DNA of 43,251 bases. It comes from Actinomycetota bacterium. Its GTDB lineage: Bacteria; Actinomycetota; Acidimicrobiia; IMCC26256; PALSA-610. Positions 6,783 through 10,382 of the stretch are shown here, in pieces (the first letter of the stretch is position 1; each line of letters starts with the position of its first letter). The stretch spans positions 1 through 43,251 of the forward strand of contig SXHN01000080.1 of NCBI GenBank assembly GCA_005773635.1, read 5' to 3'. A model generated the notes under the pieces. It did not search any database. It was not told the origin of the DNA and was given only the letters and a program-made list of their open reading frames with translations. The position numbers were made by a program, and so were the translations under genes.

Positions 6783-8189
6783 ATGACAATGCTTTCGGTG
6801 GCCGCAGCCGCGGCCGCTATTCGTAATCGCACGATCACGGCCCGAGACCTTGTCGAGCAATGTCTCGAGGCGATCGACCGACACAATCCGTCGCTCAACG
6901 CGTTTGTTCATCTTGACACCGTCGGCGCGCGATCTCGCGCCGACGCCACCGATGCGGCGTTGCAGCGCGGCGACGATCTCGGGCCGCTTGCCGGCGTGCC
7001 GTTCGGAGTAAAAGACCTTGAAGATTGCGCGGGTATGCCCACGACACAAGGCTCGCGTTGGTATCAAGGGCAACCACCTGCGAGCAACGACGACATTCAC
7101 GTCGCTCGCTTGCGGGCTGCGGGCGCGAACCCAATCGGCAAAACCGCGACACCGGAGTTCGGCACGTGGGCATACACCACAAGCCCGGCATTGGGTGTCA
7201 CTCGCAATCCATGGAACGCGTCGTGCACGCCGGGTGGATCGAGTGGCGGATCGAGCGCGGCCGTCAGTGCGGGCTTGGTGCCGTTTTGCACGGCCAGCGA
7301 CGGCGGCGGTTCCATTCGCACGCCCGCTGGATTCACAGGCCTTGTGGGTCTCAAAACCACCTACGGTCGGATCCCCGGCCTCAATCGGACAGTCACCGCG
7401 CAAAACTCCGTGGTCGGTTCGCTCACCACCACTGTCGAAGACACTGCCCTGCTCCTCGACATCATGGCTGGCCCCGATGCCCGCGATCGGGTTTGTCTGC
7501 CCCATCCGACGATCCGATACGCGGATGCGCTACACGACCTTGATGTGCGCGGGCTACGAGCAACATTTACGCCCGATTTCGGATTCGCCATAGTCGATGC
7601 CGAAGTGGTTGCGATCGCTCGGGCGGCCGCACGCGCGATCGCCGTGGCTTCCGGTTTGCAATGGGTGGATGTCGACATCCAGTTCGACGATTGGGTGCCG
7701 ACGTACGCTCGAATGGAGGGCATCGACATGTTCATGGGCCGCGACCGAGCGCTGTGGGAAACGCGGCTCGACGAGCTAGATCCACTAGTCGCTCCCGGGT
7801 GGGCCAGCGCGCAACGGATTACGCTTCCGAAACTCGCCGCCGTATACGACCGCCGTTTCGCCTACGAACAACAAGTCGCCACGCTCTGCAATGACGTCGA
7901 CATTGTGTTTTCTCCCACTTCAGCGATCACAGCATTTGCGGCTGAGGGACCAATGCCAACGACCGTTTGTGGGGTTGAGACCCACGCTGGGATGGCCGTC
8001 CCTCACGCAATGCTCGCCAACTTGGTCAATTTGCCCGCGATCTCGATTCCGGCCGGTAGCCATAGCAACGGAATGCCCGTAGGGCTCCATGCGATGGCAC
8101 CCCGTTATCGGGAAGAAATCTGTTTGCGCCTCGCGAAGATCGCCGAATCCACCAATCCTTGGCCGCGGTTCGCTCCAATGTCGAGCTAG
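6783..8189 (+). CDS. Amidase (amidase-signature family)
   Basis: 468 residues. ATG 6783 chosen for AAGGAG about 8 nt upstream; an in-frame upstream ATG overlaps the P450 promoter and is unlikely. The Ser-cisSer-Lys triad is visible: K77 in FGVKDLED, the GGSSGGSS loop at 151-158, and nucleophile S177 in DGGGSIRTPA. The family hydrolyses amide bonds of small amides, aryl amides or acyl-amides. The short C-terminal half without an extra domain argues against GatA (no gatB or gatC nearby). Monocistronic, with a hairpin-capable inverted repeat 26 nt after the stop. Substrate unknown; it could be a nitrile-pathway or xenobiotic amidase. Confidence 0.9.
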   Translation: MTMLSVAAAAAAIRNRTITARDLVEQCLEAIDRHNPSLNAFVHLDTVGARSRADATDAALQRGDDLGPLAGVPFGVKDLEDCAGMPTTQGSRWYQGQPPASNDDIHVARLRAAGANPIGKTATPEFGTWAYTTSPALGVTRNPWNASCTPGGSSGGSSAAVSAGLVPFCTASDGGGSIRTPAGFTGLVGLKTTYGRIPGLNRTVTAQNSVVGSLTTTVEDTALLLDIMAGPDARDRVCLPHPTIRYADALHDLDVRGLRATFTPDFGFAIVDAEVVAIARAAARAIAVASGLQWVDVDIQFDDWVPTYARMEGIDMFMGRDRALWETRLDELDPLVAPGWASAQRITLPKLAAVYDRRFAYEQQVATLCNDVDIVFSPTSAITAFAAEGPMPTTVCGVETHAGMAVPHAMLANLVNLPAISIPAGSHSNGMPVGLHAMAPRYREEICLRLAKIAESTNPWPRFAPMSS

Positions 8190-8214
8190 CGCTCACCGTG
8201 TAGCAGCCGCACCG

Positions 8215-8241
8215 TGTCACACTTCGCGTTGCTACATCGTC
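8215..8241 (+). promoter_or_regulatory. ECF41-type promoter TGTCACA-N16-CGTC
   Basis: TGTCACA at 8215-8221 and CGTC at 8238-8241 are separated by exactly 16 nt. This is the target motif I recall for ECF41 sigma factors, and the downstream operon encodes such a factor. The implied start near 8248 leaves a short leader with AAAGG at 8261-8265, 7 nt before ATG 8273. The same stretch holds an inverted repeat (8215-8225 with 8243-8253, 11 pairs including one G-U), which might also end amidase transcription. Confidence 0.8.
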
Positions 8242-8272
8242 TGAGGTGTGACAGCAAACGAAAGGCTGAATC

Positions 8273-9493
8273 ATGACACGAAGAATCATTGTGATTGGCG
8301 GCGGCTGGGCCGGGCTCGCGGCGGCCGCAACCGCAGCGTCCAACGGTGCCGAAGTGGTGCTCCTTGAAGCCCGCCGCGAATTGGGCGGCCGGGCGCGCAC
8401 TGAAGCAGTTGATGGCTTCATGTTCAATCAGGGGGCGCACGCGTTGTATGCGGGCTTCGAAGGGATGCGCGTGCTGCGGGGATTAGGCATCGAGCCGAAG
8501 GGCAACAAACCCCCGCTCAAAGGCTACGGGCGTTTACGGGGCAAGGTCGGCTTGATGCCTGGAACTCCACTGGATTCGATTCGTTCGCCGATGATCGGGC
8601 TCGGCGCGAAGGTTCAGCTTGGCAAACTGCTCGCAAACCCAAAGAAAGTTCTGCGCACCGAGATGATAGGTCGCTCCATGCAGCAATGGATCGAAGAACA
8701 AGTATCGAACGCCGACGCCCGCCTCATTCTCGCAATGGTCGCGCGAACCGCGACCTATCAAGACGACTTGAACTCAGTCGCGGCATGTGTTGGCGTGCCA
8801 CAAACCATTGGGGCGTTGACCGATGGAGTCCTGTACCTCGACGGAGGGTGGCAGCAAATCGTCAATGCACTTCGCAATATCGCGACCGAAGCGGGAGTTA
8901 AAATCGATACCGATGCGAAGGTCGAATCACTCAACGACATCGACGACTGCGACGCAGTCATCATCGCTAGTGGCGGGCCGTCCCATGCCGCAAAGTTGCT
9001 TGGCAATCGTTCGACACTCGTGGGCGAGTGGGCTGCCGCAGCGCAACCGGTCTACGCGTCAAGCCTCGATCTTGGACTGCGATCGCTGCCGGTGCCGCAG
9101 CGGCGATTCTGTTTGGGCGTCGATAGCCCGCTGTATTTCTCCACCCACACGCCTTCTGCAAAACTGGCTCCTGACGGATGTGAACTCGTGCATGTGTTGC
9201 GCTATGGCGACGCGCCTGGCGACCCGCGTGCCGAGATGGACGAACTGCTCGACGACGCACAACCGGGCTGGCAAGAGCAGGTGCTGGCCGAACGGTACGG
9301 TAAACGTTGGCTCGTTGCGCACGACCGTCCAACGCCCGAGCAAGGCCCGCTGACCAACCGTCCTGGGCCGGCGATACCCGATTGCGACAATGTGTTCGTG
9401 GCCGGCGACTGGGTTGGGGCGCACGGTCTGCTCGGCGACGCGGCACTAGCGAGTGGCCGCGATGCTGCACTTGCCGCATTGACGTTGATGTAG
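8273..9493 (+). CDS. FAD-dependent amine-oxidase/phytoene-desaturase-like oxidoreductase
   Basis: 406 residues. The N-terminus is a dinucleotide-binding fold (IIVIGGGWAGLAAA, residues 5-18, then LLEARRELGGRART near 30-43). The C-terminus has the second FAD motif with NVFVAGDWVGAHGLLGDAALASGRDAA. The overall pattern is that of the NAD(P)-binding Rossmann amino-oxidase group, including protoporphyrinogen oxidase- and phytoene desaturase-like enzymes; the substrate is unclear. It is co-transcribed with the ECF41 sigma gene 4 nt downstream and sits behind the ECF41 promoter. ECF41 loci are known to carry carboxymuconolactone decarboxylases, oxidoreductases or epimerases, so this is probably the regulon's main output. 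Confidence 0.85.
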   Translation: MTRRIIVIGGGWAGLAAAATAASNGAEVVLLEARRELGGRARTEAVDGFMFNQGAHALYAGFEGMRVLRGLGIEPKGNKPPLKGYGRLRGKVGLMPGTPLDSIRSPMIGLGAKVQLGKLLANPKKVLRTEMIGRSMQQWIEEQVSNADARLILAMVARTATYQDDLNSVAACVGVPQTIGALTDGVLYLDGGWQQIVNALRNIATEAGVKIDTDAKVESLNDIDDCDAVIIASGGPSHAAKLLGNRSTLVGEWAAAAQPVYASSLDLGLRSLPVPQRRFCLGVDSPLYFSTHTPSAKLAPDGCELVHVLRYGDAPGDPRAEMDELLDDAQPGWQEQVLAERYGKRWLVAHDRPTPEQGPLTNRPGPAIPDCDNVFVAGDWVGAHGLLGDAALASGRDAALAALTLM

Positions 9494-9497
9494 CTAC

Positions 9498-10382
9498 ATG
9501 GATTCCTTGGCGGCCTTCGAAGCACATCGCGATCGTCTGTTCGGAGTCGCGTATCGCATGACCGGATCGGTGGCCGACGCTCACGACATCTGCCAAGACG
9601 CTTGGTTGAAATGGCAGGCCGTTGACACCGAAACAGTCGACAACGCTGAAGCATTTCTGGTGCGCGCAGTGACGCGACTCGCGATCGATCGCGCGCGTTC
9701 AGCTCAGGTGCGGCGCGAGACTTACGTGGGGCCGTTCCTACCCGAGCCGCTTGTGAACACTTCAGCAACCGATCCGCAGGCCAACGCTGAGCTAGCCGAT
9801 TCATTGACCTTCGCATTCCTAGTTGTACTCGATGAGTTGTCGCCGGTGGAACGGGCGGTATTCCTGCTGCATGATGTCTTCGCCTATTCGTTTGACGAAA
9901 TCTCAGCGGCGGTCGATCGCAGCACCGCTGCATGCCGCCAAATCGCGAGTAGGACACGGCACCGCATTGCGGATCACAAACCCGATGTACGCCGCATCGA
10001 CAACGGAGCGGAGCGCGCACTCATCGAGCATCTGATTGCGCTCACGATCGCAGGCGACATCGAGGGTCTCATGGCGAAATGCGCACCCGATGTCGTCGAA
10101 CTTGCCGATGCGGGGTCAATGCGGCGAGCCGCGCGATACCCCGTCGTCGGACCAGCTCGAGTCGCTCGCCTCATGGTCAACTTGGCGAAGCGCATCATGC
10201 CCGCGATGACTATGGAATTTGTTCGAGTGAACGAAGGCGTTGGTGTTCTATTTCGCGATCAGGGTGAGCCCGACATGGTCATGGTCTTCGGCTTCACTCC
10301 AGATGGGCAGCTCCGACGCGTATTCGTGCAACGCAACCTCGAGAAGCTCCGCCACATCGCGAGACCAAGTAGCCCTATTTGA
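9498..10382 (+). CDS. sigJ: ECF41-family RNA polymerase sigma factor with fused SnoaL-like domain
   Basis: 294 residues. Sigma-2 region at about 5-75 (FEAHRDRLFGVAYRMTGSVADAHDICQDAWLKW), linker YVGPFLPEPL at 76-85 typical of this group, sigma-4 region at 113-160 (LSPVERAVFLLHDVFAYSFDEISAAVDRS), and a SnoaL-like extension at 175-285. In ECF41 factors this extension controls activity in place of a separate anti-sigma factor, and none is encoded here. The conserved DGGGK is degenerate (DAGSM at 204-208) and the C-terminal NPDKL reads NLEKL (280-284). It starts 4 nt after the oxidoreductase stop. The ECF41 promoter at 8215 implies autoregulation. The symbol follows the mycobacterial SigJ-type naming and is tentative. 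Confidence 0.9.
   Translation: MDSLAAFEAHRDRLFGVAYRMTGSVADAHDICQDAWLKWQAVDTETVDNAEAFLVRAVTRLAIDRARSAQVRRETYVGPFLPEPLVNTSATDPQANAELADSLTFAFLVVLDELSPVERAVFLLHDVFAYSFDEISAAVDRSTAACRQIASRTRHRIADHKPDVRRIDNGAERALIEHLIALTIAGDIEGLMAKCAPDVVELADAGSMRRAARYPVVGPARVARLMVNLAKRIMPAMTMEFVRVNEGVGVLFRDQGEPDMVMVFGFTPDGQLRRVFVQRNLEKLRHIARPSSPI

Follow-up and report, generated by a model that had tools for sequence, protein, structure and literature searches.

A probable autoregulatory ECF41 promoter ahead of an oxidoreductase-sigma factor operon in an Actinomycetota genome

In the current study, we analysed a 43,251-nucleotide stretch of DNA (the window) and found that a short element at positions 8215 to 8241 of its forward strand is very probably, with a likelihood that we put at roughly 90%, the promoter for the ECF41 sigma factor encoded at 9498 to 10382. 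On this reading, which is based on sequence comparison, the operon containing the sigma gene would be positively autoregulated, and the oxidoreductase encoded immediately ahead of it would be the only clear other target. The element matches the published ECF41 target motif in both halves and in spacing, it stands before the only ECF41 operon of the genome, and it is conserved together with such operons across the class. The idea of an autoregulated ECF41 operon had already been raised in a first-pass annotation of the same DNA, and both the literature and the relatives examined here support it well.

The promoter motif and the genes behind it

The -35 element of the predicted promoter, TGTCACA (8215 to 8221), is identical to the published consensus, as is the -10 element, CGTC (8238 to 8241), and the two are separated by a 16-nt spacer (8222 to 8237). 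This is the motif that Wecke et al. (2012) derived from 285 sequences, TGTCACA-n16-CGTC with a spacer of 16 ± 1 nt (PMC3426412), and the first-pass annotation had given both sequence and spacing correctly. Dinucleotide shuffles of the window predict 0.02 exact matches, and this is the only one present. The end of CGTC lies 31 nt (8242 to 8272) ahead of the oxidoreductase ATG at 8273, and the oxidoreductase gene is followed by an ECF41 gene; here too the earlier description of distance and coupling was borne out. The site therefore has both features by which an ECF41 promoter is recognized, namely, TGTCACA and CGTC at 16 ± 1 nt and a position before a COE and/or an ECF41 gene. A likely ribosome-binding site for the oxidoreductase, GAAAGG (8260 to 8265, forward strand), was picked out by eye, and GGAAAGG occupies the equivalent place in a genome of the same genus (G004). 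A search for a sigma-70-type promoter between 8100 and 8400 found none.

The first gene of the operon (8273 to 9493, forward strand) is the COE gene and encodes a predicted FAD-dependent, amine-oxidase-like oxidoreductase of 406 aa, with Pfam matches to NAD_binding_8 (1.2e-14) and Amino_oxidase (2.4e-14). None of the NCBIfam matches listed reached an equivalog cut-off; judged by these profiles, the enzyme belongs to the FAD amine-oxidase superfamily, and neither Pfam nor NCBIfam gives it a finer name. The second gene (9498 to 10382) starts on the same strand after a gap of 4 nt and encodes a SigJ-type ECF41 sigma factor of 294 aa with a C-terminal extension (TIGR02957, 1.3e-90; PRK09636/SigJ, 2.6e-87, the latter exceeding the cut-off of its model). 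Sigma70_r2 covers residues 7 to 70 and Sigma70_r4_2 residues 107 to 154, after which some 130 residues follow that align with SigJ-type models over their full length. ECF41 factors are defined by sigma2 and sigma4 domains plus an extension of about 100 aa, and the protein has all three. It is also the only full-length match to a sigma factor of this kind in the 3.56-Mb draft genome, which is 95% complete (303 bits, versus 53 bits for the runner-up). A search of plasmids for relatives gave none at 1e-40, and one contig scan returned a single weak and partial match. The operon is flanked by an amidase gene and a cyclase gene, and no anti-sigma gene adjoins it. The amidase gene lies upstream on the same strand, its end 83 nt from the operon ATG, and read-through from it could be an additional source of operon transcription.

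We propose that RNA polymerase carrying the ECF41 sigma factor would bind this promoter, start near 8248 to 8250 and cross the oxidoreductase gene and then the sigma gene, so that the sigma factor would raise expression of its own operon in a self-amplifying loop, that is, by positive autoregulation. The fused C-terminal SnoaL-like domain presumably keeps the sigma factor inactive until a signal alters its conformation; a regulatory role for the ECF41 C-terminal extension is taken from the literature, and that of the NPDKL motif has been described in PMC7730460. At the corresponding place (residues 279 to 287) the sigma factor of the window reads RNLEKL; most other members have NPDKL, and its nearest relatives NPDKL or NPEKL. 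Its linker motif (residues 80 to 84) is FLPEP, whereas the two relatives nearest to it within the family have YLPEP and most others WLPEP, and residues 204 to 208 read DAGSM where others have DGGxx. Given these three diverged motifs, the strength of self-inhibition may differ in this protein.

The predicted transcription start, G8248 or G8250, draws on two lines of evidence. ECF41 transcripts mapped in two species start at a G and have leaders of 22 or 23 nt (PMC3426412), and a start at G8250 would give a 23-nt leader, equal to those mapped. The second line comes from relatives: in 7 of the 20 motif-bearing loci described below (in G012, G006, G699, G744, G733, G087 and G723), an in-frame ATG lies only 8 to 9 nt past CGTC, which suggests that their mRNAs are leaderless, with the A of the ATG as the 5′ end. 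Transferred to the window, this distance would place the start at 8250 to 8251, which fits the 8247 to 8250 expected in the first-pass annotation. Apparently leaderless relatives may thus help to fix the start-site distance of ECF41 promoters. In our collection these short-distance loci are listed as L018, L020, L102, L103, L105, L121 and L122.

Conservation of the motif with the operon in relatives

We gathered oxidoreductase-ECF41 loci across the family, order and class to which the genome belongs, giving 23 loci with the window included. In 17 of these (16 of 22 when the window is left out) the roughly 300 nt ahead of the oxidoreductase contain the exact motif, another three carry the variant TGTCACG, and the remaining three have no recognisable motif. 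A broader collection of 37 ECF41 or COE records, a few of which overlap, has the exact motif in 24 and reversed controls in none. One natural control is G031 (L080, on contig G031:C319), where a 54%-identical oxidoreductase has neither an ECF41 neighbour nor the motif. As judged from these loci, motif and sigma gene go together. The G031 oxidoreductase, the closest that we found outside the genome of the window (54% identity over its length), is preceded by a 168-aa gene that ends 22 nt upstream and that, by eye, has the look of an Rrf2-type regulator; this oxidoreductase may be under another regulator.

A second natural control, the same-genus genome G004, holds what appears to be a remnant of the operon (L119, G004:C67:25000-29000, also L021). 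The gene order is kept, with intact amidase and cyclase genes on either side of 58 alignable oxidoreductase residues, but the equivalent of window positions 8448 to 10372, which comprises the rest of the oxidoreductase gene and nearly the whole sigma gene, is missing. What remains after this deletion of about 1.9 kb, in which oxidoreductase residues 59 to 406 are gone, is a remnant frame of 73 aa, some short filler sequence and a promoter altered at one base: the spacing and CGTC are retained, and the -35 element reads CGTCACA. Because the site is far from the ends of its 63-kb contig, the loss is not due to a contig end, although it may stem from a misassembly.

The inverted repeat around the promoter

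The -35 element of the window also forms one half of an inverted repeat that is exact over 8 bp, TGTCACAC at 8215 to 8222 against GTGTGACA at 8246 to 8253. The first-pass annotation was right that a repeat is present, but the right arm that it gave, 8243 to 8253, is slightly too long: pairing reaches 9 or 10 bp only when a G-T pair is counted. At any one locus, an exact TGTGACA would turn up by chance at one of 16 downstream offsets with a probability of 0.0017, a figure to be read with the fact that the repeat was spotted post hoc. Moreover, TGTCACA is itself of the form TGT-N-ACA and differs from its inverse by one base only. When TGTGACA was sought as a right arm in the 19 other motif-bearing loci, none had it (the best, in G011, agreed at 6 of 7 bases and at a different distance), and the right arm is likewise absent from G004. 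The right arm is seen directly in the window and is absent in relatives, and we regard the repeat as probably coincidental and most likely without a role.

The first-pass annotation had suggested that the repeat could act as an operator or a hairpin, and neither idea fared well. As an operator, the repeat would be bound by a dimeric regulator or by the sigma factor itself, covering the -35 element and the start and adding a second layer of control in this lineage. The perfect 8-bp match, the spacing of the arm centres (31 bp, or about three helical turns) and the low per-locus chance of the exact right arm would suit such a site. Against this, besides the fact that neither G004 nor any of the 19 other motif-bearing loci has the right arm, the pattern TGTCACA-N15-30-TGTGACA is found in only 2, and a reversed control in 6, of 58 genomes searched in the order, and no regulator gene adjoins the repeat. 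We therefore consider an operator very improbable. It is equally improbable that, in this one lineage, an inverse copy of the -35 element placed over the start serves as an operator through which a repressor, or the sigma factor itself, shuts the ECF41 promoter, a second layer of control for which we found no report in this group.

Still less likely is an RNA hairpin of both arms that controls the leader or terminates transcription arriving from the amidase gene. When folded, a 71-nt stretch does pair the two arms, at -23.2 kcal/mol, but the z-score is only -1.78, 11 of 200 shuffled sequences fold equally well, and a search for a terminator-like site found none. In addition, a transcript from the ECF41 promoter cannot form this hairpin, since the predicted start at 8248 to 8250 falls within the right arm, which would leave the left arm upstream and outside the RNA. 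We also considered an antisense ECF41 promoter with the right arm as its -35 element; by eye, no CGTC or TGTT lies at 15 to 17 nt, and this candidate was discarded.

Genome-wide matches and relation to known ECF41 systems

Across the 3.56-Mb draft genome the exact motif occurs three times, versus two for a reversed-pattern control, and with spacers of 15 to 17 nt it occurs eight times versus three. The motif by itself is thus hardly enriched; the telling part is its position before the sole ECF41 operon. By our arithmetic, the chance that one of three sites, distributed over both strands of 3.56 Mb, would fall within 300 bp upstream of that operon on the right strand is about 1e-4. An accidental match, with the operon read instead from the amidase promoter or from one that we failed to recognise, would accord with a genomic count close to that of the control and with the amidase gene ending a short way upstream on the same strand, but it is very improbable given that across the class the motif is conserved alongside the operon, that it is absent where the sigma gene is absent, and that 8100 to 8400 yielded no sigma-70-type promoter.

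The first-pass annotation had looked to a genome-wide motif search to define a regulon. Of the seven other matches with 15- to 17-nt spacers, six lie within long open frames, on either strand; the seventh, at C37:12024, is not covered by a long open frame, nor does any ORF of at least 120 aa start within 200 nt. A wider regulon is therefore not indicated, none of these matches being clearly placed before a gene. This fits what Wecke et al. concluded, namely, that an ECF41 factor generally governs one neighbouring gene or operon (PMC3426412).

The preferred reading, that of an ECF41 promoter serving its own operon, also places this locus among systems of an already known type, and it appears to be an ordinary ECF41 promoter-oxidoreductase-sigma operon. 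Of 107 loci with the order COE-ECF, 97 carry the motif ahead of the COE gene and none does so ahead of the sigma gene, and proteins with an Amino_oxidase domain are counted among the COE oxidoreductases, one of three COE classes (PMC3426412). Like the operon described here, RSP_0606-ecf41 of Rhodobacter sphaeroides and ydfG-ecf41 of Bacillus licheniformis have TGTCACA-N16-CGTC before the COE gene, a short leader, the sigma gene alongside and no anti-sigma gene (PMC3426412). They differ from it in the COE enzyme, which is a carboxymuconolactone decarboxylase in those two pairs (PMC3426412) and an FAD amine-oxidase-like oxidoreductase here, and in that the promoter here also happens to be half of an inverted repeat. 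The window adds one clean example of such an operon, and the useful part of the work is the comparative set.

Among solved structures, the closest to the sigma factor of the window is Mycobacterium tuberculosis SigJ (5xe7, 1.5e-46), which aligns over residues 4 to 237 and has the same layout of sigma2, linker and sigma4 followed by a C-terminal extension. The two proteins differ in the linker LPEP motif, which is preceded by phenylalanine in the window and by tryptophan in M. tuberculosis SigJ.
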